Shown here: positions 9,346 to 44,149 of the stretch, piece after piece | Layout: each line of letters begins with the position of its first letter | Position numbering within the stretch: position 1 is the stretch's first letter | Assembly (NCBI GenBank): GCA_020720365.1 | Contig: DYOU01000007.1 | Coordinates: 1 to 57,715 of the forward strand | Direction: 5' to 3' | Length of the DNA stretch: 57,715 nucleotides | DNA from: Candidatus Elulimicrobium sp. | GTDB taxonomy: Bacteria; Omnitrophota; Gorgyraeia; Zapsychrales; Fredricksoniimonadaceae | The notes under the pieces: model-generated | The model's input: the letters and a program-made list of their open reading frames with translations, nothing else | The model's database searches: none | Told to the model about the DNA's origin: nothing | Translations under genes and position numbers: made by a program

Positions 9346-10388
9346 TAAGGACGTCAATTACGATACCGACATTGGTGCGGATCAAAGCAGGGGCTTTGGA
9401 TCGTCTTGGTTTGTATGTGGTCCGGGGGCAGTTTAAATCTGTGACTTTATTGTATAGCCAGGCATTGGATAATATGCTTGTGGCGCGAATGGATCAGTCT
9501 ATGGCAGGGCAAGGGATTAAAGTCCTTCAGCGGATTGAAGTGGGTTCGTCAAGTTTTGAACATGCGCATGAAGTGTTTCATGCATTGCCGCGGGATACCG
9601 ATGTGATCATAGGGTTTGGTGGGGGGAAGGCGCTTGATGTCGCTAAATATGTGGCGTTTCTGGCGCGGCTTTCGTATATCGCTGTTCCCACATCATTATC
9701 GAATGATGGCTTTTGCAGTCCACAATCCAGCCTTGAATTCAAGGGGATCAGGCGGTCATTCCCGGCGGCAATGCCGTATGGTGTTGTTGTTGATATCGAG
9801 GTGGCGTTGAATGCGCCGAGGATCCTGTGGCTTTCCGGTATTGGAGATATCGTTTCAAAAATAACGGCTGTTTATGATTGGAAGCTTTCTTTTAAAGTAA
9901 AAGGAACTCAAGTCGATGATTTTGCGGCCCTGCTTTCGGATGCGACTGTTTTTCAGCTGATGGCTAAACCCGACAGGGATCTTGATGGTATGCGTTTATT
10001 GGCTACGGCACTGATGTTGAACGGGATCGCCATGGAAATCTGCGGATCGTCGCGTCCGGCAAGTGGCAGCGAACATTTGATCTCACATGCGCTGGATCTG
10101 GTGAGCAAACGGCCGCGCTTGCATGGATTGCAGGTGGGAGTGGCCACTTATATGGTCAGCCAGTTACAGGGACGAGGTTCTCAGCGTATCGCTAACCTGT
10201 TTGATCAAACAGGTTTTTGGGATGCGATCCGTCAGGATCCGTTCGATCGGGATGAATGGATCGAAGCTATTAAGCAAGCTCCGTTGGTCAAATGTAATTT
10301 CATATCTATACTTTCAGAGCAAGATCATACTGAAGATCTGGTGAAGATTTTGGATGTTGATCCATATTTGAAAGGAGTATTCCGTTGA
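9342..10388 (+). CDS. egsA: sn-glycerol-1-phosphate dehydrogenase family (AraM/EgsA-like)
   Basis: 348 aa; 'DVIIGFGGGKALDVAKYVAFLARLSYIAVPTSLSNDGFCSPQSSL', 'RPASGSEHLISHALD'. 4-nt overlap with the upstream gene. Confidence 0.88.
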   Translation: MIRTSITIPTLVRIKAGALDRLGLYVVRGQFKSVTLLYSQALDNMLVARMDQSMAGQGIKVLQRIEVGSSSFEHAHEVFHALPRDTDVIIGFGGGKALDVAKYVAFLARLSYIAVPTSLSNDGFCSPQSSLEFKGIRRSFPAAMPYGVVVDIEVALNAPRILWLSGIGDIVSKITAVYDWKLSFKVKGTQVDDFAALLSDATVFQLMAKPDRDLDGMRLLATALMLNGIAMEICGSSRPASGSEHLISHALDLVSKRPRLHGLQVGVATYMVSQLQGRGSQRIANLFDQTGFWDAIRQDPFDRDEWIEAIKQAPLVKCNFISILSEQDHTEDLVKILDVDPYLKGVFR

Positions 10389-13300
10389 GATCTTTAGCTA
10401 TTCACAGTTTTTTGTCTCGTTGGGATCGTTCTAATATTTTATTTTTTTCAATACTCTTGATTTGTTTGTTGGGGCCGGTATTGGTTATTGTGTCATTGAT
10501 ATATTCTCAGGTTCGGGAGGAGACGAAGAATTCTTATGTGTCTGAAAGGCAGAATAATATCGACATATTGGGGGTATTGTTGGGAGAGAGGATAGAAAAG
10601 ATCAGGGATATTGGTATTTCTTTGGCTACAAGTCCGGTGGTGGTGAAAAATATTAAAGAAGATAAGTGGGAGGAGGCTCTTTCAGCCGTTGTTGATGTTA
10701 AAAAGGTAGCTGCTTCGATCAAGCGTATTCTTTTGGTAGATACAACATCGAAGATTATGGCAGATACGGAGAAGCTTGATAATGCCATTGGGACATCGAG
10801 GGGGGAAACAGATTGGTATAAAGGAGTAAGCCGGACGTGGGAACCATATGTTTCAGAGGTTGTCTATCGTTTTGCTATTCCTCGGGTAAATGTAGTGAAT
10901 GTTGTTATACCTGTTTTGAGCGGATCTTCCCTGGATGGCGACCGAACTGGTCCATTGAAGGATGGAGAGAGGGTTATTGGGCTTATTGTGTTACAGCTGA
11001 TGCTTGAACAATTTTCGGATATTGCTCAAAGTGCTTATAAAAGATTTTATGAAGGTGAGTTGCTGGTGGTGGATCAGAATGGTCATTTGATTTACAGTTC
11101 AATCCGGAAAATGACGGGAGTTTTGATAGATCTGTCTTCAGATAGATATGTTAGCCAGGTGATGAAAGAGATAAAAGGAAGTTCGTCAGGTTCATTAAAG
11201 AAGCGGATTGGCAGTGATCTGGTATTAGCGCAAAAGGTAAAGAAATATAACTGGCACATTATTTTGATTGAGCCGTTCGCAAACATTGAGGCCATGCTTG
11301 ATCAGCGAATACATATGTTTTACTGCCTGATCTTTGGGGGTATGGTTGTTTATGTTCTTATGGTGCTGGTTGTCATGATATTATTATTTGTGACACGTCG
11401 GAGTAATCGTTTATTAAATACCGAGCGGGAGAATCTGCAGAAGATATTTGATGTGGTTCAGGTCGGGTTAATTCTTGTCGGAGAGAAATGTGAGGTGCGG
11501 AGATTTAATCGTGCTTTGGAAAACATGATTCATCGTCCTTTGATTCTTTCAAAAGGGCTTCGGATTGGTGAAATATTATGTGGTGTGAAGTCGGCGGATC
11601 TGGATTCTCCTTGTGGAGAAGCACCTCGTTGCGTCGATTGTCGTATTAACAGCATAATTGTTCAAACATTAAAGAGTGGGACAATTTCTCAGCGTCATGA
11701 GGTTTGTAAGGATATTATGGTCGATAGCCAGATTCAGGAGCGTTGGTTTCTGGTGCAGGCAGCGCCTATGGATATGGGGAGTGAACAACAGGTTCTTCTT
11801 TCGCTGATAGATATTTCGGAGAGTAAGGAAACAGAGCGGGTTGTACGTCTGGCCCAGGAGCAGGTCCTTAAGAGTGAGGCCTGGTGGAGGTCTCTGATTC
11901 AAGAGGTTCCGGCGGTTGCTTTTGTCCTTGAGAAGGAAGGAGTCGTGCGATCGGTGAACAGGTCTTTTGCCGGGATAGCGGTAGAAGAATTGGTGGGGAA
12001 TCCTGTGGACAGGTTCCTGGACGTTAAGCAGGGAGAGGCTTGGGTGCAAGGTTTAAAGGCTGTTTTTGAAAACAAGGAATCTGTTATTTTTGAATCTTCT
12101 GTCCGGACATCCTTGGGGGATGTGGTCTGGTATGAGAATCATATCGGGCCGATTGAAGCAGAGAAAGAATATGTTGGGGCATTATGCCTGTCTTTTGATA
12201 TTACGCAACGTAAGCACAGTGAATCACTCTTGCTTAAAATGTCGTTGGCGGTTAAATACAGCCCGGTTGCAGTGGTTATTACGGATCGTCGGGGCAGGGT
12301 TGAATATGTAAATGCCAGATTTACAGCATCAACAGGGTACAGGATGGATGAGGTGAATGGGCAGGTTTTGCGTATTCTGCGTGAAGGGGAGCTGTCTGAT
12401 GATCGTCGTCAAGATCTTTTGAAGAAAGTATATTCAGGCCAGGAATGGAAGGGTGAATTTGTTGAAAGGACCAAGGAAGGTGTTGAATTGTTTGAAATGG
12501 TCACGGTATCGCCAGTTATGGATACGACGGAAAAAGTGACGCATTTTATTGTGCTTAAAGAAGATATTACAGAACACTATTTGTTACAAAAGCAGAAGGA
12601 AAAAGATCTGCTCTTTTTGAAAGGATTTTTGGATGCGATACCGAACCCGGTATTTTACAAGAATCGTGCGGGTGTATATTTGAGCTGTAACAGATCTTTT
12701 GAAGAATATTATGGTAAATCACGAGCAGAGATCATTGGCCGGACTGTTTATGATATTGCTCCAAAAGCAATGGCGGATGTTTATCATGCGCATGATGAGA
12801 AAGCATTTCTTGAAGGGACGGGAAGTTCTTATGAGGCCAAGGTGCGGTATTGTGATGGTACTGATCATGATGTGATGTTCTTTAAATCTATTTTGCATGA
12901 CCAGGAAGGAAAGATCAGCGGACTTGTTGGCGTTATGCTGGATATTACAGAGCGCAAGGGCATGGAAGAAGATTTGCGTAATAGTGAAGAGCAGTTGATG
13001 AAAGCGTTGGAAGAGGTGAAATCTTTTAATATGCAGCTTGAAAATACCCAGGATATGCTGGTTCAACAGGAGAAGCTTGCGGCGATCGGTTTCTTGGCGG
13101 CGGGAGTTGCCCATGAGATCAATAATCCTTTAGGTTTTGTGAATGGGAATTTGCAGTCCTTGGGGGAGTATTCCAATGCCTTGATTGAGGCAGTAGGGTT
13201 AATAATACCGGTATTTGAAGCGGTGGATTCGGGTGATATGGGCAGGATCTCCCAGGCCAAGGAAAAATTGGCAGAGGTATGGGAGAAACGCTCGGTGGAT

Positions 13301-14638
13301 TATATTCTGAAAGACATCAAAGGGCTTTTGGCCGAGAGCCAGGAAGGGATAGACCGTATTAAAACGATCGTTCTGGGGCTTAAGAATTTTTCCCGGACTG
13401 ATGGCGGTGAAATGGTGATGACGAATATCAATGAATTGATCGATAGCATGGTAACGATTGTCTGGAGTGAGTTGAAGTATCATGTGGAATTGATTCGAGA
13501 GTATGGATCTATCCCATTGATACCTTGTAATTCGCAACAGTTGGGGCAGGTGTTTGTTAATTTGCTGGTGAACGCCTCTCAAGCGATCAAAGAACACGGG
13601 GTGATCACATTGCGTACGTTCTTTCGGGATGGCGGGCTTGTGGTTGAGGTCAAGGATACGGGTTGTGGTATACCAGAAGCTATTCGCACCAAGATATTTG
13701 ATCCATTTTTTACAACTAAAGAACCAGGAAAGGGGACTGGCCTGGGGTTAAGCATCAGTTATGATATTGTCAAGAAGCACGGCGGGCATATTGATGTTCA
13801 AAGCCGGATCGGAGAAGGTACAACGTTTTCAGTTATTATTCCTGTTCGGCAGACAGAACCGATTCAGAAAAGAGGAGAAGGTATGATAAAGAAAGCATTG
13901 TGTTTAGGGATTATGGGTGTGTGTCTGGCCGCTGGCGCGGCTTTCGCTGAGGAAGTGCGGATCGGAGCAGGCGCTGCGGCGACAGAAAATATTTTCAAGA
14001 AGATACAAGCTCCATTCGAACAGGCAACAGGAGTTACTTTATTTATTGAATCGAGCGGCCCGATAGATGGTTTCAAGAAGATGGATGCCGGCGGTTTGGC
14101 TGCTGTTGTGGCAGGAGTTGAGTTTAATGAGTGGATCGCTATGTTGGAGAAAGACGGTTATAAGGTAGCCGATAAGGCGGCTTATGTACAGCAGGTGATC
14201 GGTAAGGATATTATCAAGGTTATTGTGAATAAGGAAATCGCTGTGGCCAGTCTTTCTAAAGAACAGTTGAAGGGTGTTTTTACCGGAAAGATCACGAATT
14301 GGAGTGAGCTTGGCGGACTTGACATGGAGATCGGGGTTATTTTTGCTGAACAGATCCAGGGAACGCAGAATATGGTCAAGAAAGTTGTGATGGATGGGGA
14401 AGAATATACAGGAGACCGGATCGAAGTAGCAACGGCTGATGATGTAAAGAAAAAGGTTGTTGAGACTCCGGGTTCTATTGGCCTTGTACCGCAGTCTTTG
14501 GCTGATGAGGCTGTAACGGTGCCGGCGATCCCTGAGATCGGACGTACGATCATTCTTGCGACCAAAGGGGTTCCGAATCCCGCTGTGCAGAAAGTGTTGG
14601 ATTATATCAAGGGAGATGGCCAGGCTTTGATCAAGTAA
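10385..14638 (+). CDS. multi-PAS sensor histidine kinase reading in frame into a PstS-like periplasmic binding protein
   Basis: 1417-aa ORF (TTG start). Extracytoplasmic sensor, TM, several PAS, HisKA '[17 protein letters not shown]', HATPase 'DTGCGIP...[20 protein letters not shown]', then from codon 1167 '[46 protein letters not shown]...'. Probably two functional products. Confidence 0.85.
13883..14638 (+). CDS. PstS-like substrate-binding protein (251 aa), probable independent internal start
   Basis: AGAGGAGAAGGT-ATG gives a strong RBS; own signal peptide ending AAFA/EE; '[17 protein letters not shown]' is a PstS-family motif. Same frame as the upstream kinase. Confidence 0.75.
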   Translation: MIKKALCLGIMGVCLAAGAAFAEEVRIGAGAAATENIFKKIQAPFEQATGVTLFIESSGPIDGFKKMDAGGLAAVVAGVEFNEWIAMLEKDGYKVADKAAYVQQVIGKDIIKVIVNKEIAVASLSKEQLKGVFTGKITNWSELGGLDMEIGVIFAEQIQGTQNMVKKVVMDGEEYTGDRIEVATADDVKKKVVETPGSIGLVPQSLADEAVTVPAIPEIGRTIILATKGVPNPAVQKVLDYIKGDGQALIK

Positions 14639-35892: not shown

Positions 35893-37905
35893 ATGACGAT
35901 CTATTCAATGATCATTCAGAGTATGCGTTGTATTGTGGCAGGTGTATGTATGATGAGTGCGCTTGTGATGAGTATTCCCGCAAAGGGTTGGGCTGCGTCT
36001 GGGCCTTATGCGGCGATGGAGCTTCCCGTTCCTGGCCAAATGATGTCACTGAGTTCTAGCACCGATCCCGTCAGGCTTGAAGGGGTCAGGGTATACAGCC
36101 AAGAGCCTTTTCGTTTTGACTTTATTGTGAATAGAGGCCAGGCTGGTGAGGATGTTCGTCAGGAGAGCGAGCGCCTGATCCGGTATTTTCTAGCGGCCTT
36201 GACGGTTCCCGAGGAGGATCTTTGGGTCAACTTATCTCCATTTGAAGAAAACCGCATTATTCCGGAAAAGTTTGGGCAGACAGAGCTGGGCCGGGATCTC
36301 TTATCAGAAGACTATGTACTTAAACAGGTGGCTTCTTCGTTAGTCTATCCTGATGGGGCTGTGGGCAGGGTTTTTTGGAAGAAAGTGTATGCGTTAGCTG
36401 CGGAGAAGTTTGGGATTGATCGCACTGATATTCCGCTAGATGCATTAACTAAAGTATGGATCGTGCCTTCTCAAGCACTTATTTATGAAGATCCAGGAAC
36501 GTCTACGGCATATATTCTTGAATCACGTATGAAAGTGATGCTTGAGAGTGATCATCAGGCTCAAAAGGGAGGGACGGAGAATTCTTCATACATGAGTTCA
36601 GTGGAGTTGGCGAACAAAGATCCGTTGCAGGGAATATCAGAGCAGGTGATCCGTTCGGTTATTATTCCTTTGCTTGAACAAGAGGTGAATGAAGGGGCTC
36701 ATTTCAGTCGTTTACGTCAGGCGTATCAATCTTTGATCCTGGCGGCATGGTATAAACGGAAAGTGAAGGCAAGCCTTTTGGCTTCTGTCTATGTGGATCA
36801 GCGAAGGGTGAAGGGAATAGAGACCGGGGAACCTTTGGCATCGGCGAGAATTTATGAACAGTATCGTCAAGCTTTTCGGCAAGGTGTTTTTAATATTATT
36901 CGGGAAGAACGTATCGGAGAAGAGGAAGATTTTATTGCGCGTAAATATTTTTCCGGTGGGCTGGAGATGGGGGTTGATACAGTAATTCAGATTACCGGTT
37001 TTCAGGATCCAGCCATGGCAGCAGTATTTCGGGAAAGATATGCTTTGCCTGGAGGTGATCAGCGGGTGATTGTTTCGGCGGTGCTAGATCCGGAATTTGA
37101 GGGACAGAGAGAATTGATAAATAGTTCACAACCTGTTGCGGCGATTGATAATGCAATGAAGACTGTGCCGGATCTGTTTAACATGCTTTATAAAGAGGTC
37201 AGTTTTCGTCCGTTATCTCTTGCTGATGCGGAAGCATTACCGATTGAAGACAGCCTCAGCTTTGTGGATCATCCGATATTTAACCCATCAGGTGTGAGTG
37301 TGGTTGCTTTGTATGGAAGGAGTGTATTAAGAAAGACAGATGCTATCTTGCAGGGAGTGGCGATCGTCAGGCAGAGTGACTTCAGGTACAGCGTAGGACG
37401 GAATGATGTGCAAGCCTTCTTGCAGGTTTTCCGATTCGAGAAGACAGATATATTTAAAGAGGCTTTATTGGCCAGGGTTTTGAATGAATTGCGGATGGGG
37501 CGATCTAATCTGCAGGCGTGGAAGTATTTATTAGCTGTTGCCCCCGATAACAAGGAGGCTTTGGAGTTCTTTTTTAAGGCAGGGTTTGTGCTTTTGGCAA
37601 AGAAATTTGATAGTGGCTCAGAGGATCCGGACTATTATGTGATCACGGTCCAACGGGCCGAAGTTTTTGTGAAACGGGTGATGAAGAGCCGATGGTATCC
37701 GGATGATGCTCAAACCGCTAATACGGGTGGTATTGATATGCGTGATGAGCAGATGGTACTTCAGGTTCAGGGGGTTCCATCTTCTGCCGAAGTTTCAACA
37801 GCGAAATTTATTGATCCTTCCGCGTATATGAACGTTCCGGGATTCTCTGTGAGGATCATTGATTTAAAGGATTCAAAGTTCTGTCCCTTGACAGGATGTC
37901 ATTAA
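35893..37905 (+). CDS. large secreted protein of a family recalled from Omnitrophota; C-terminal region possibly GNAT-like
   Basis: Signal peptide; 'MELPVPGQMMSLSSSTDPVRLEGVRVYSQEPFRFDFIVNRG...LIRYFLAALTVPEEDLWVNLSPFEENRIIPEKFGQTELGRDLLSEDYVLKQ'; C-terminal 'NKEALEFFFKAGFVLLAKKF'. Confidence 0.6.
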   Translation: MTIYSMIIQSMRCIVAGVCMMSALVMSIPAKGWAASGPYAAMELPVPGQMMSLSSSTDPVRLEGVRVYSQEPFRFDFIVNRGQAGEDVRQESERLIRYFLAALTVPEEDLWVNLSPFEENRIIPEKFGQTELGRDLLSEDYVLKQVASSLVYPDGAVGRVFWKKVYALAAEKFGIDRTDIPLDALTKVWIVPSQALIYEDPGTSTAYILESRMKVMLESDHQAQKGGTENSSYMSSVELANKDPLQGISEQVIRSVIIPLLEQEVNEGAHFSRLRQAYQSLILAAWYKRKVKASLLASVYVDQRRVKGIETGEPLASARIYEQYRQAFRQGVFNIIREERIGEEEDFIARKYFSGGLEMGVDTVIQITGFQDPAMAAVFRERYALPGGDQRVIVSAVLDPEFEGQRELINSSQPVAAIDNAMKTVPDLFNMLYKEVSFRPLSLADAEALPIEDSLSFVDHPIFNPSGVSVVALYGRSVLRKTDAILQGVAIVRQSDFRYSVGRNDVQAFLQVFRFEKTDIFKEALLARVLNELRMGRSNLQAWKYLLAVAPDNKEALEFFFKAGFVLLAKKFDSGSEDPDYYVITVQRAEVFVKRVMKSRWYPDDAQTANTGGIDMRDEQMVLQVQGVPSSAEVSTAKFIDPSAYMNVPGFSVRIIDLKDSKFCPLTGCH

Positions 37906-37950: not shown

Positions 37951-39318
37951 ATGACTAAAAAAACACAAACCTTTTTTCTCACCATTCTTTTATTTTTTAT
38001 ACCGCAGGCATGTTTTGCGGCGATAAGCCTAAGTGTTAATCCTGTTGATGGAAGCAACACCCTGCGTTTCAGGCCTTCTGTAGGCGGCATGGAAGATAGA
38101 AAAGAGATCCGTATTCGAGTTAATTCAACGGGAGGTACTCGTTACCAGGTTTTTCAGCGTTTAATGGAACCTCTGGTGAATGAAAAAGGTGAGACCTTGG
38201 ATATTCAGGTATTACAGACAGCGACAACCGGTAATTCGAATGCTTCCGGAACGCTGTATATGCAAAATATTGATCGGATGAGTATGGGAGAGCAGCTTTT
38301 ATATACATCAGGGCAGAATGGCGACAGTGATTCTTTTACGGTTGCTTATGCGGTTGATGCTGGAGTTGTGGATCGGAGCGGTATTTTTTGTGGTCGGGTT
38401 GTTTTTACGGTGCGGGCTATAGGAGAAGCGTCTCAGGAGCAGACATCGGTTAATATCATGATAGAAACGCTTTCTGTATGGAAAGCCGAGGTGGCCGGCG
38501 GCCGGAATAAGGGGTTGGTTCGGGTAAAAGATACAGATGTGACGGATCAGAGTGCTGATTTTGTTAAAGTATCATTTGCCGGTAGTTCTCATCAGGAAGT
38601 TCGTATTTATCAAGAGGTTTTTTCATTGCCGGAAGATGCTCAGGCCAATGAAATGAAAGAAGATGTTTTAAGGTTTTCAGTTGGAGCCAATGACGAGAAG
38701 GGTGTTCGGGCGGCAGGGGTTTCTTCGTTGGGCAGGGACAGCGTTCTTTTATATGCCGGCCAGGCTCAGGAGAATGATATCATCATCCGGTTCTTTGTGG
38801 ATCCGAAGGTTATTGCCCTTCAGGATGCAGGAACGTATTTTGGTAAGGTTAAGTATATTGTCGAGACCAATGATAAAAGGCAAGAGTTCCAGGTTGACCT
38901 GGAATGTGAGGTTCAGCCTGTTTTTACCGTTGATGTTATCCTGCCTCCGGAAGGCGTAAGTTTTAAAAATATTTTACCGAATGCACCGCCTTCGGAGCAT
39001 GAAGTTGTAGTTACAGTTCGCTCCAATCTTCATCGTCCCTATCAGATCCTGCAGGATATGCAGGCTCCGATGGTGAATGAAAAAGGCGAGGCTTTAAAGA
39101 AAGAATATTTTTCCATGAAAGTCGATCTTTCCGGGATGAAGGGCAAGACAAAGTTCACTGATTTTACGCCGATGGAAACCGGAGAATATACCATTTTCTC
39201 ATCGGATAATCAGGGCACAGCGGGTACCTTCAGGGTGATTTATCAGCTGCAGGGGTACCCTCAGATGAGCGGAGGCAATTATGCGGCTCCGATACGTTTT
39301 TCGTTGAATCAAAACTAG
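37951..39318 (+). CDS. secreted protein with three tandem fimbria-like beta domains
   Basis: Signal peptide; repeated 'YQVFQRLMEPLVNEKGETL' / 'YQILQDMQAPMVNEKGEAL' and domain-end motifs 'SGIFCGRVVF', 'AGTYFGKVKY', 'GGNYAAPIRF'. Confidence 0.65.
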   Translation: MTKKTQTFFLTILLFFIPQACFAAISLSVNPVDGSNTLRFRPSVGGMEDRKEIRIRVNSTGGTRYQVFQRLMEPLVNEKGETLDIQVLQTATTGNSNASGTLYMQNIDRMSMGEQLLYTSGQNGDSDSFTVAYAVDAGVVDRSGIFCGRVVFTVRAIGEASQEQTSVNIMIETLSVWKAEVAGGRNKGLVRVKDTDVTDQSADFVKVSFAGSSHQEVRIYQEVFSLPEDAQANEMKEDVLRFSVGANDEKGVRAAGVSSLGRDSVLLYAGQAQENDIIIRFFVDPKVIALQDAGTYFGKVKYIVETNDKRQEFQVDLECEVQPVFTVDVILPPEGVSFKNILPNAPPSEHEVVVTVRSNLHRPYQILQDMQAPMVNEKGEALKKEYFSMKVDLSGMKGKTKFTDFTPMETGEYTIFSSDNQGTAGTFRVIYQLQGYPQMSGGNYAAPIRFSLNQN

Positions 39319-39343
39319 GTTAAACAAAAAAAAGGAGAGATGC

Positions 39344-39964
39344 ATGAAAACAAGGGCAAGTGTTATGATGGCAGCGGCTATTCTGCTCGCGCAGTCTGGC
39401 TCGTTATGGGCACAAACGGTTTTTACGATCACAGCAGCAGTTCCTGCGGCTACGAGTGTAAGCATCGCAGCATCAAGTATCACAGGAACGACATGGTCGA
39501 CTGCAGGTACAGCTTTAACCTTCGGAACGTTGACGTTTGATTCCAGTATTCCTACGGGATCAACCAAACCGTTGAACATTTGGCGTGCGCCGAATTATTT
39601 TGCTATTGATATTTCCAATAATGGCGGTGGCAGCCCGAGCGCATCTTTTACTTATACGGAAGGGTCCAAACCAACAGGACAGGTGCACGGCTTGGGGTAT
39701 AAAGGTACGATCGACTTCAAGAGGGTTACAATTAATACGGCTGGTGTTACGACTGATAATGTTATCACAGGGCATACCAAAAAAGCGTTGAGGGATATCA
39801 CTGTTACAGAGAGTATTTCTTCTTCTTTGACCGCGGGTGGTTGGTTAAGGGCTTATATTGGTCTTGCGGATGGCGCGACAGGAACTCCTGGTGAGCCTTT
39901 CGGTGCTACAGACTTACAGGGTAACTATACAGGAACATTGACGATCACAGCGACAACGATCTGA
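39344..39964 (+). CDS. secreted subunit-like (fimbrial/spore-coat-U-like) protein
   Basis: Signal peptide ending LWA/Q; Thr/Ser-rich beta protein; C-terminal 'GATDLQGNYTGTLTITATTI' resembles subunit terminal strands. Confidence 0.6.
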   Translation: MKTRASVMMAAAILLAQSGSLWAQTVFTITAAVPAATSVSIAASSITGTTWSTAGTALTFGTLTFDSSIPTGSTKPLNIWRAPNYFAIDISNNGGGSPSASFTYTEGSKPTGQVHGLGYKGTIDFKRVTINTAGVTTDNVITGHTKKALRDITVTESISSSLTAGGWLRAYIGLADGATGTPGEPFGATDLQGNYTGTLTITATTI

Positions 39965-39989
39965 TTATTAATGAATATTTGATGCTGAT

Positions 39990-40790
39990 ATGAGAAAACA
40001 AATAATATTTATTATGTTTTTTTGCATCGTCCTTGCCGGACCGGCCATGGCCCAATTCTTCATAGAAGAAGGAAAGGTTGTCTTGTCCGTGTCCGGCGGG
40101 GAACGCATCAATAAATCAGTTATTATTAATAATACAACAGCCAATGATCTGGATGTGCGCGTTTATTGGGAAGATTTTCAGTATGAACCGCCTTATGATG
40201 GCTCAAAGAAGTTCTTTCCTGCCGGGACAATAGAGGGCTCTGCCAGCAGCTGGATCCAGTATGTCCCGCAAGAGTTCAGATTGCCAGCTTTTGGCAAACA
40301 AAAGATTGATTATACACTGAGTGTACCGGATGATATTCAAGGAGGGCATTATGGTGTGCTTTTCTTTGAACGTTTGGGAGATGCGGCTGAAGGCCGTGCC
40401 GCTGTCAAGATCGTAACACGCCTAGGTTGTTTGTTCTTTATTGAAGCCAAAGACAAGACCAAGAGTGCGGAGCTGCAAAACATTAAATTTGAAGGTAATG
40501 ACCTTACAGGATCTTTCGCGAATAACAGTAATGTGGTGTTGATACCTCATACGACATATTACATTATGGATGAAAGCGGACTTGTCGCTGATCGCGGAGA
40601 AGTGGCGAAACTTTATGTTACGCCTGGAGCGGTAGCCTTCTGGAGGGTTTCATTGCCGAAGGATCTGGCCGCAGGGCGATATACATTTTTCCTGAACGCA
40701 GATCTTGAAGATGGAGATCTGGTGGTCAAAGAGATCACCTTTCAAAAAGATTTATCCGGAGGCCTGGTGGTCGAAAAAGTGCAGGATTAA
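39990..40790 (+). CDS. PapD-like periplasmic chaperone candidate
   Basis: Signal peptide; 'EEGKVVLSVSGGERINKSVIINNTTANDLDVRVYWEDF', 'FRLPAFGKQKIDYTLSVPDDIQGGHYGVLFFE', then second beta domain. Confidence 0.62.
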   Translation: MRKQIIFIMFFCIVLAGPAMAQFFIEEGKVVLSVSGGERINKSVIINNTTANDLDVRVYWEDFQYEPPYDGSKKFFPAGTIEGSASSWIQYVPQEFRLPAFGKQKIDYTLSVPDDIQGGHYGVLFFERLGDAAEGRAAVKIVTRLGCLFFIEAKDKTKSAELQNIKFEGNDLTGSFANNSNVVLIPHTTYYIMDESGLVADRGEVAKLYVTPGAVAFWRVSLPKDLAAGRYTFFLNADLEDGDLVVKEITFQKDLSGGLVVEKVQD

Positions 40791-40831
40791 CCTTTGCATA
40801 ACCATCAATCCCGCTGACCGGACAACAGCTT

Positions 40832-43681
40832 ATGATCTTAAGACGAGCGTTATGTTTAATGATGGCGGCCTTTTTGATGTTATGGGCCTTTCCCTCTTTC
40901 GCTGAAGATCCGTATCTTTCCTATGAACAGTATTTGAATGAGGGTGTTCAAGCTTTTAAGAATCGCGATGATCAGGCTGCCTTGGATTATTTCCATCGGG
41001 CGCATCTTTTATATCCTTCAGCAGAAGAGCCGCTGCAATATATTAATCTGATCAAGCGTACTCAGGATGAACGGCTTCAGGTAATGGGTGTTCCTTTAGA
41101 GCCCGATCATCCAGAGGCGCGAGAAAAAGTTATCCAGGCGACTCTTGATCAGTTTGTCGGCCGTGCTCAGAAGCCATTAGCCATAACGCAACAACCTCTC
41201 CTTGAGAAAAAAGTAGAGCAGCCATTGCCTGCCAGGAAAGTGACAGCTTTGCCTGCTCTTTCCGCAACACAGGTAGTCAGTCATTCTTCTGCTATAAGAA
41301 AAACGAATGATGTGCTTTCATTGGATGATGTCGTGGCCTCCAGCCAGGACAGACCGTCGATCCGTATTGTTTTTGGTTCTTCGGTTATTGTAGAGGGAAG
41401 GAATCTGCAGCGGTTTCTGGCTGTTAATCCTGAGGCACTGAATGTTAAGCCGGCAGGGAGGGATCAGATCATTATTGAGGCTAAACATTGGGGAAGCTCA
41501 TTCTTACATATTTGGGATGAACGTGGGCGTACGACGGTGTATGTTGAGGTGATGCTTCCGGCGGCATCGAATGAATTTGTTTCTGCACAATCAGCTGCTG
41601 TGGAACATGCGCCTCCATTTCGTATGAATTATGCGTTGGATAACAGCTCTTTTTATTATGGACCGGATCTGGGTGGATTACGCCGCAGGAGTTTGAATGT
41701 TCAGGAAACGTTTGGACTGACAGGGGAGACGCCATACGGCCTTTTGGATACGTCTTTAGTTGCGACCGGATTTAATCCGGTCCTTGAGATCCCCAATTAT
41801 ACATTGGGGCTTTCGCATGTTCCGATGCCGGGGACGAGCGACCTTAATCTTCGGGTGTTTGACGGGTATCGATTCTTGTCGCCGTTGACGATGGTGGGGA
41901 CACGTTTGAAAGGAGCTTTTGCGGATGTTGTTTCTTTGAATAATATTCTGGCTGTTTCAGTCAGTCATGGGGCGCAAATGGGGTCTTTTAATTATTTACC
42001 AGGCGGCGGGTCGACAACAAAAGATTCGTTTATTGATGCGGTGCGAGTTTCACTTTTTCCGGGCAATACGACGCATGAATATTCGATCAATTTTGCGCAA
42101 GGCAGCGGCAGTGAGCGTGATGAATATTTAACAAAGAAGGTGTATTCGATCGAGGGCAGGCAGAAGTTGGGGCCTGTTGATCTGAATGCTGAGCTGGCTC
42201 GGGATGATGAGAATACTGCTTCATTGGCAGGAGCCCAATGGTTGAATGGGGCGCTCAGGCAGCGGTTGAGCTTCAGGGAGATCAACAAGGATTTTACAAC
42301 GATCGTTTCGTCTCCGTCTAATCAAGGTGAGATCGGTGGTACCTGGACGACGAGTGGAGAGTGGGACAGGCTTTCCATGGATACGTATGTTGATGTATAT
42401 AAAGACAGAATATTCCCCAATGAACAGGATCCTGAGGCGTTAAATCTTGATTCGAATGTTCATACACGGATACCATTTGGAGAAAAATATGCGGTTGATG
42501 CGGCGGTGCGGTACGTACATACGCCAGGAGAAATGTCACCGAGAAGATATGCGAGCGTTGATGGCCGTTTGACACGAGAGCTTCCGGTATGGGGAGGTCG
42601 TAAGGGAAGTGTTTATGTAGGGGGAGTGGATCAGCGAAGCCGGTTTTCGTTTGCCTCGGAATCAGAATACGACCGCGAAGCTGTTTCGGCGGGAGTTCAG
42701 GTGCCGTTGACGAGATCATTATCTGGTTATTTAAATTATGAATATTCATGGCTGCATGAAAAGTTTTCGCTTGAGGATTACAATCCTTCGGTGATGAATG
42801 CGGGGTTATCTTACAGTAAGCAGCTGACCAACAAGCTTTCAGGAAATTTAGGCTTAATGTATCGTGATGAAGAGAATGTTGAGGGGCGTAATAGTTTTTT
42901 GGCCGGGGAGGACAGTGTATCAGCCTCTGCCGGGCTATCGTATAATCCCAAGACCGATGTGAATTTTTTCTGTGATTCGCGTTTAAGGAATGTCCTGGCG
43001 CAAATTCCCGATAATCCTTCTTATAATGACCTGGATGTCCGTTTTGGTATGCGGATGGCATTCGGATTGGGCTTTTCACTGGATTCTGAAGGTATTGTGA
43101 CGGGTTTTGTCTTTAAGGATCGGGATGGGAATAAGAAATTTGATCCACAGGACACGAATGTTTTGGGAGATGAGGGGCTTGCAGGGATCAAGGTCAAGAT
43201 CGGCGATAAAGAGGCGGTGACCGATGAACGCGGTTGGTATCGACTGGCGATCCGCGGTAAAAAAGTTATCGTTACACCGGTGCTCGAGAGTTTACCGACA
43301 GGGTTTGTTTTTTCAACGCCAAGTTTCGCGAAATTGGAGCTTCGTCAGGGGCAGACCAGCCGGGTAGATTTTGGCTTAACGAGTCAATCGGGTGTGTATG
43401 GCGTGGCGTTCGTGGATCGAAATGGAAACGGAATCCCTGATCAGGGTGATCGTTTTGTGAGCCGGGTGAAAGTTCTTTTAGATGGGAAAGGGGCTCAGGT
43501 CACCGATGGCCGTGGAGCGTATTTCTTCAAGAATATCGCCAAGGGCAAGCACACGTTAACGATCGATATGAAAGATCTTCCAGCTGAGTTTATTCCGCTT
43601 GTAAAATTAAAGAATTCTGTGGATGTAGTTGAAGGAACGACCTATGTTTTTCATATTCCGTTGAAAGCCAAGGCGGAATAA
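40832..43681 (+). CDS. composite outer-membrane protein: TPR, CpaC/RcpA-type N-terminal domain, beta-barrel, SdrD-B-like domains (usher-like candidate)
   Basis: Signal peptide; 'NRDDQAALDYFHRAHLLYPSAEEPLQYI'; 'IRIVFGSSVIVEGRNLQRFLAVNPEALNVKPAGRDQIIIEAKHWGSSFLHIWDERGRTTVYVEV'; long beta-rich section; 'GFVFKDRDGNKKFDPQDTNVLGDEGLAGIKVKIGDKEAVTDERGWYRL'. Confidence 0.7.
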   Translation: MILRRALCLMMAAFLMLWAFPSFAEDPYLSYEQYLNEGVQAFKNRDDQAALDYFHRAHLLYPSAEEPLQYINLIKRTQDERLQVMGVPLEPDHPEAREKVIQATLDQFVGRAQKPLAITQQPLLEKKVEQPLPARKVTALPALSATQVVSHSSAIRKTNDVLSLDDVVASSQDRPSIRIVFGSSVIVEGRNLQRFLAVNPEALNVKPAGRDQIIIEAKHWGSSFLHIWDERGRTTVYVEVMLPAASNEFVSAQSAAVEHAPPFRMNYALDNSSFYYGPDLGGLRRRSLNVQETFGLTGETPYGLLDTSLVATGFNPVLEIPNYTLGLSHVPMPGTSDLNLRVFDGYRFLSPLTMVGTRLKGAFADVVSLNNILAVSVSHGAQMGSFNYLPGGGSTTKDSFIDAVRVSLFPGNTTHEYSINFAQGSGSERDEYLTKKVYSIEGRQKLGPVDLNAELARDDENTASLAGAQWLNGALRQRLSFREINKDFTTIVSSPSNQGEIGGTWTTSGEWDRLSMDTYVDVYKDRIFPNEQDPEALNLDSNVHTRIPFGEKYAVDAAVRYVHTPGEMSPRRYASVDGRLTRELPVWGGRKGSVYVGGVDQRSRFSFASESEYDREAVSAGVQVPLTRSLSGYLNYEYSWLHEKFSLEDYNPSVMNAGLSYSKQLTNKLSGNLGLMYRDEENVEGRNSFLAGEDSVSASAGLSYNPKTDVNFFCDSRLRNVLAQIPDNPSYNDLDVRFGMRMAFGLGFSLDSEGIVTGFVFKDRDGNKKFDPQDTNVLGDEGLAGIKVKIGDKEAVTDERGWYRLAIRGKKVIVTPVLESLPTGFVFSTPSFAKLELRQGQTSRVDFGLTSQSGVYGVAFVDRNGNGIPDQGDRFVSRVKVLLDGKGAQVTDGRGAYFFKNIAKGKHTLTIDMKDLPAEFIPLVKLKNSVDVVEGTTYVFHIPLKAKAE

Positions 43682-43686
43682 TCGTT

Positions 43687-43917
43687 TTATAAAACCACAA
43701 TAGATCTTACTGTAACCACTTCCTGATTGCGGACCATCTGCTGCTCCTGGACTATTCCTGATTCATTGAATACTTGCTGGTTTTGATCTGCCGCAGGCAT
43801 TTGAATTAAAGCAGGAACGGTAACCGATAAATTGAAGACCATGGATTCAGCCCAGGCAGAGCCCGCTTGTGCCAAGATGAGAACAGTCAGGATTGTTAAT
43901 GTCAGATGTTTTTTCAT
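43687..43917 (-). CDS. small secreted protein (76 aa), riboswitch-controlled
   Basis: Signal peptide 'MKKHLTLTILTVLILAQAGSAWAESMVFNLSVTVPA'; GGGGG RBS; riboswitch upstream. N-terminus resembles the 39344 protein ('LLAQSGSLWAQTVFTITAAVPA'). Confidence 0.78.
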   Translation of the reverse strand: MKKHLTLTILTVLILAQAGSAWAESMVFNLSVTVPALIQMPAADQNQQVFNESGIVQEQQMVRNQEVVTVRSIVVL

Positions 43918-43967
43918 TGTCGCCCCCTTGTTTAAGGTAAGACGACTTGAAAGAGATGGAAGGACAC

Positions 43968-43996
43968 AAAAAAGAAAGCTAGCGTGCGGTTAGCTT
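43968..43996 (-). terminator. terminator forming the riboswitch expression platform
   Basis: Minus-strand AAGCTA-ACCGCACGC-TAGCTT followed by TCTTTTTT. Confidence 0.82.
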
Positions 43997-44091
43997 CGGC
44001 AACCTGACGACCATTCCCTTATCATAATGATAAGGGGTTAGGCTCACGGCTTTGCGTCCTACTCTTTCAAGTAGTTTGCCTTTTTCGACTA
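43991..44091 (-). ncRNA. c-di-GMP-I (GEMM-I) riboswitch aptamer
   Basis: Minus-strand RNA: AGGCAAACUACUUGAAAGAGUAGGACGCAAAGCCGUGAGCCUAACCCCUUAUCAUUAUGAUAAGGGAAUGGUCGUCAGGUUGCCG. Has GGCAAAC, GAAA-tetraloop P2, GGACGCAAAGCC, CCUAA/AUGG receptor and GUUGCC closing strand. Confidence 0.94.
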
Positions 44092-44119
44092 TAAAGAACA
44101 ATTTCCTTCCCCGATTTAA

Positions 44120-44149
44120 AGCATAACATATTCCGGTTCGCATTGCCAA
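44120..44149 (-). promoter_or_regulatory. predicted sigma70-type promoter for the riboswitch transcript
   Basis: Minus strand TTGGCA - 18 nt - TATGCT, just upstream of the aptamer. Confidence 0.55.

Follow-up and report, generated by a model that had tools for sequence, protein, structure and literature searches.

A conserved c-di-GMP-I riboswitch module suggests control of a divergent chaperone-usher-like pilus in Candidatus Omnitrophota

Background

Several described systems bear on the locus presented here. In the c-di-GMP-I (GEMM-I) riboswitch Cd1 of C. difficile, an antiterminator competes with the aptamer, the closing helix P1 is undetected by NMR, and the element works as a transcriptional OFF switch (PMC9262584). 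Riboswitches may also act in antisense, for which one survey uses the positional criterion of an element on the opposite strand, at most 500 nt from the 3' end of its target gene; in that survey c-di-GMP riboswitches showed the strongest antisense tendency (PMC9943018). Among chaperone-usher pili, the pilins of the Csu system possess an N-terminal strand with alternating hydrophobic residues that serves as donor strand (PMC4654587), and the minor subunit FimI is able to end assembly (PMC4654587, PMC12122975).

We found no paper joining Omnitrophota with c-di-GMP, and ushers are not mentioned in the main Omnitrophota genome survey. Here we analyse a stretch of 57,715 nt (hereafter the window; contig DYOU01000007.1) from a genome of this phylum (1.89 Mb, 86% complete) that carries five GGDEF domains. 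By its sequence, the aptamer in the window is a new example of a known riboswitch class, and it lies inside a new conserved module that comprises a small secreted protein and a convergent operon with an usher-like gene.

Results and discussion

The aptamer and its promoter

The aptamer, at 43995-44090 on the minus strand, matches the full RF01051 model (positions 1-87) with 78.6 bits (E 8e-14) against a gathering score of 35 in Rfam, and precedes a 76-aa ORF on the same strand. An earlier note on this DNA, made from the letters of the sequence, had proposed a GEMM-I aptamer upstream of a small secreted protein, and both parts of this proposal are confirmed. The same is true of its promoter, a sigma-70-type element at 44120-44149 (minus strand) consisting of TTGGCA (44149-44144), an 18-nt spacer and TATGCT (44125-44120), which matches at 9/12 positions, has a TG preceding the -10 box, and follows a TTGGCA..TGnTATRYT pattern that is found again upstream in relatives.

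Other aptamers encountered during our searches differ in architecture. The only other c-di-GMP switch found in the same genome (locus L087, 10620-10790) fits the c-di-GMP-I-GGC model with a long insertion at 56.6 bits, narrowly missing the gathering score (59); downstream of it lies the gene of a cysteine-rich protein of 102 aa. Elsewhere in the family (L077, L086), similarly long aptamers stand before related proteins. Large GC-rich hairpin insertions within the conserved core occur in the aptamers at L141 (1285-1419) and L241 (5431-5576).

The earlier note envisaged an ON switch, in which c-di-GMP stabilises P1 through pairing of UAGU with GCUA, thereby breaking a hairpin, H1, and preventing termination. 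The letters of UAGU and GCUA are indeed present, as are the hairpin and its U-rich tail (43968-43997, minus strand), one congener possesses a stronger hairpin at the place of H1 (-6.0 kcal/mol, UCUUUUUGU) with a U-tract, and pilM operates in this ON manner (PMC9262584). However, the flanks of the window aptamer pair no better than shuffled sequence (-2.3 kcal/mol versus a shuffled mean of -3.4, p 0.76), and flank complementarity over 41 loci likewise shows no excess over shuffled sequences (Fisher p 0.85). Moreover, the H1 stem (GAAGCUA/UAGCUUU, 43997-43975) has few G-C pairs and reaches only about -4.9 kcal/mol; two terminator scans of the window did not list it, H1 falling short of the stable GC-rich stem of a terminator, and in most of the family the hairpin at this position has no U-tract. 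Given flank pairing at the level of shuffled sequence and a weak stem, we set the model aside and consider it unlikely. The missing P1 does not in itself disqualify the element from the c-di-GMP-I class, since Cd1 also lacks a detectable P1.

The small secreted protein

The ORF at 43687-43917 (minus strand) encodes a predicted secreted protein of 76 aa, as had been claimed, and in the ORF list of the window no second gene on the minus strand was well supported, in agreement with the note. Homologues are present in 14 of the 34 genomes in the family, 42/86 in the order and 45/392 in our sample of the phylum, a few of these matches being pilin N-termini. Three close homologue pairs yield dN/dS values of approximately 0.14, 0.35 and 0.24; values this low indicate that the ORF encodes a real protein, one that by this measure is under purifying selection, and which was previously undescribed.

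The consensus of the family runs from a signal peptide through the motif xxFxLSVTIPxxx and a variable linker to ExxxRNNxxxxxxTIVxx at the C-terminus. In the AlphaFold model (mean pLDDT 76, pTM 0.31), a signal helix (residues 3-16) is followed by an extended stretch without a pairing partner, and residues 55-63/66-74 make up a beta-hairpin. The N-terminus matches that of the operon pilin described below in a profile-profile comparison (E 4e-8, with the signal peptide included in the match), and an alternating pattern is seen in the N-terminal region. Judged from these comparisons, the N-terminus is pilin-like and resembles a donor strand, and a predicted C-terminal beta-hairpin follows it. A fold search with the small protein returned no structural match, and searches of Pfam, NCBIfam and PDB sequences with the small protein, the pilin and the chaperone-like protein yielded nothing useful.

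Two further coding observations are recorded here. In five loci of distant Omnitrophota (L228, L230, L237, L239 and L242), the riboswitch is separated from the small secreted gene by an extra small ORF of the type MKxxEEIxx..FLxRxELDFLD. Elsewhere in the window (10385-14638), a sensor histidine kinase and a phosphate-binding-like protein are joined in one ORF of 1417 aa. The phosphate-binding-like part comes with a start, a ribosome site and a signal peptide of its own, which looks like the result of a stop lost between two genes.

Linkage to a divergent usher-like operon

The small gene is far from being the lone gene of the earlier note. Its stop lies 5 nt from that of the last gene of a plus-strand operon (37951-43681), which encodes a conserved secreted protein of 455 aa (37951-39318), a pilin-like subunit (39344-39964), a periplasmic chaperone-like protein (39990-40790) and an usher-like outer-membrane protein of 949 aa (40832-43681), and which is kept around the small gene. 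Across Omnitrophota, whose genome contigs were also searched with an alignment of the chaperone-like protein, we gathered 58 small-gene loci, and the pair forms a phylum-wide module. A large usher-like gene lies tail-to-tail with the small gene in 56 of the 58, with gaps of -29 to +161 nt, and in 46 of them the small gene is directly preceded, on its own strand, by an aptamer of the c-di-GMP-I, -GGC or -UAU family, all three families being found at orthologous small genes. Two family members retain the small gene without the aptamer. At L099 and L100 the small gene and its promoter are kept, with aptamer and boxA-like site (see below) absent, and these natural riboswitch losses are useful for comparison.

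For the 949-aa protein, AlphaFold predicts a helical N-terminal part, a large barrel and, at the C-terminus, two beta domains (mean pLDDT 82.8), a fold with the outer-membrane barrel and C-terminal domains of an usher, in which TPR, pil_N, barrel and two Ig-like parts can be distinguished. The 13 best Foldseek matches in the PDB are all FimD or PapC (E 6e-19 to 7e-9), with global TM-scores of only 0.2-0.5. Given these low scores, and since the Pfam usher model matched none of the 31 members of this protein family that were scanned, "usher-like" is the appropriate term. The chaperone-like protein shows weak Ig-like Pfam matches, and a PDB sequence search with it was empty.

Could the peptide be an ordinary riboswitch-controlled secreted product without any tie to pilus assembly, its neighbourhood having been inherited by chance? 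The failure of the fold search to match the small protein would fit such a scenario, yet the linkage spans many genera, the small gene co-occurs with the chaperone-like gene in 42/45 cases (Fisher p 4e-20), and the N-terminus is pilin-like, so that we regard it as highly improbable.

Just upstream of the pilus operon (35893-37905) lies a gene for a 670-aa protein that resembles proteins of the MVxLSPxxNPPILKGI..FRFDFI type, which elsewhere in the family (e.g. L058, L064, L075, L079) sit directly behind c-di-GMP-I riboswitches.

A conserved alternative pairing

Between aptamer and gene lies a stretch that we term arm X (GUGUCC..CUCUUUCAAGU, 43945-43967, minus strand), which can pair with strand A, the 3' strand of the aptamer's tetraloop helix (ACUUGAAAGAGUAGGACGC, 44054-44072, minus strand). 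The duplex in the window has a predicted energy of -22.8 kcal/mol, matched by 0/400 shuffles. Pairing of X with the aptamer is far above that of shuffles in 27 loci (Fisher p 8e-32, about 1e-31), and in 22 of these 27 X prefers the tetraloop-helix strand over every other 20-mer of the aptamer. Pairs from the same locus also outperform pairs taken across loci (p 8e-6), a comparison confounded by relatedness.

In 13 relatives X overlaps a terminator with a U-tract, and in most of the window's family it is the 5' half of a hairpin in which the Shine-Dalgarno (SD) sequence is buried; X is missing from the short leaders of four family members. With X serving as terminator in the former and as SD hairpin in most close relatives, the conserved alternative pairing predicts an OFF switch similar to that of Cd1. 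The window's own genus departs from this arrangement: its SD hairpin (43919-43946, minus strand, burying AAGGGGG, -12.3 kcal/mol) lies beside X, forms without it, and overlaps it by only two bases, so that the action of X there is the weakest link of the model. Static modelling of SD accessibility gave a small change (0.17 vs 0.03 in the window, 0.17 vs 0.16 across 31 loci). At other riboswitches of the family, complementarity to the aptamer with p<0.05 is seen for 8/25 terminator arms, which is mixed as support for the OFF logic.

A boxA-like site and antisense overlap

Directly 5' of the aptamer is a candidate boxA-like Nus antitermination site (GTTCTTTA, 44092-44099, minus strand) with the motif GYTCTTT. 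This motif is found within 60 nt 5' of 24/36 RF01051 aptamers at small genes, against 0.45 expected, mostly 6-13 nt ahead of the aptamer, and at 6/54 of the other riboswitches of the family. The described boxA consensus, GYTCTTTAANA, is gamma-proteobacterial (PMC5725501). In this family GTTCTTTGACA occurs in the rRNA leaders; the motif has both a fixed place in the riboswitch leader and a match in the family's own rRNA leaders, and the genome possesses a NusB gene. On inspection we rejected the possibility that the motif is just another strand pairing with the aptamer, because an A stands where pairing requires a C and the motif ignores a change from GAAAGAG to GAAAAAG in L101. A plausible role for the boxA-like site would be to shield an untranslated, convergent transcript from Rho, and the locus is a place to ask whether loading of the Nus complex tunes a riboswitch.

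No intrinsic terminator in the sense of the small gene was detected within 600 nt in 53/55 loci. Given this and the 5-nt gap, the two mRNAs should overlap in antisense, Rho aside. The aptamer edge (43995) is approximately 313 nt from the stop of the usher-like gene (43681) on the opposite strand, which places it within the 500 nt of the positional criterion above. The riboswitch might then be mainly antisense-acting, its transcript serving chiefly to interfere with the usher operon, while the small protein would play a secondary part. This spacing without an intervening terminator, the retention of the tail-to-tail arrangement in nearly all loci, the antisense tendency of c-di-GMP riboswitches in the survey, and a boxA-like site that could guard antisense transcription against Rho (PMC5725501) are all consistent with such a role. 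However, purifying selection acts on the ORF, which is conserved throughout the phylum, and the small gene persists without the aptamer, and we consequently see a mainly antisense role as rather doubtful. Small ORFs beside "antisense-acting" riboswitches, which a survey dismissed as annotation errors, can be conserved genes.

A model for the module

The reading that we favour, with moderate confidence, is that the 76-aa protein is a secreted accessory of a divergent pilus of the chaperone-usher-like kind and that the riboswitch controls it by a Cd1-like OFF mechanism combined with an antisense effect. Without ligand, arm X would pair with the tetraloop-helix strand and the small gene would be on; with c-di-GMP bound, the aptamer would fold and free X, which would then turn the small gene off by folding into a terminator, in many relatives, or, in most close relatives, into the hairpin that masks the SD. 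At low c-di-GMP, the peptide would be made and, by offering the chaperone or one of the pilus subunits its donor strand, may cap, adapt or block pilus assembly. Meanwhile the small-gene transcript, having no detectable intrinsic terminator, would run antisense into the usher gene, such that each of the two effects would help to keep pili off at low c-di-GMP. The direction of the switch, the function of the peptide and the antisense effect are thus predictions of the model, and the locus as a whole suggests that c-di-GMP controls pilus building via a mini-pilin, an antisense transcript, or both. A more far-reaching and rather improbable version is a phylum-wide riboswitch "excludon", in which a c-di-GMP-gated, boxA-protected transcript would both encode a donor-strand mini-pilin that caps or blocks the pilus and run antisense through the usher gene, silencing the pilus at the protein and RNA level at low c-di-GMP.

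What is new here is a family of small proteins, a divergent usher-like system that escapes the Pfam usher model, and its conserved association with predicted c-di-GMP control; together they form a putative regulatory module, open to test, in a phylum without isolates.

Comparison with known systems

Like chaperone-usher pili of the archaic Csu and type 1 Fim kinds, the system described here has an usher-like barrel, two C-terminal Ig-like domains and a donor-strand-like subunit N-terminus, yet it matches no Pfam usher or chaperone model, carries N-terminal TPR and pil_N domains, and includes a mature peptide of 50 residues in place of a full pilin. It shares with the antisense-acting riboswitches (SAM at ubiG-mccBA, cobalamin at PocR; PMC9943018) a position at the 3' end of an operon on the opposite strand, whereas here a conserved protein-coding gene intervenes. 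The Geobacter pilM switch (GEMM-I, ON) has the same aptamer class and is in its mechanism the closest to the ON model set aside above, but aptamer and terminator are mutually exclusive in pilM, and we found no P1-based exclusion here. With Cd1 the locus has in common a GEMM-I aptamer, a strand predicted to compete with the aptamer and an undetected P1; it differs in that the tetraloop helix would provide the competing strand, the arm can also be an SD-masking hairpin, and the genes are different.
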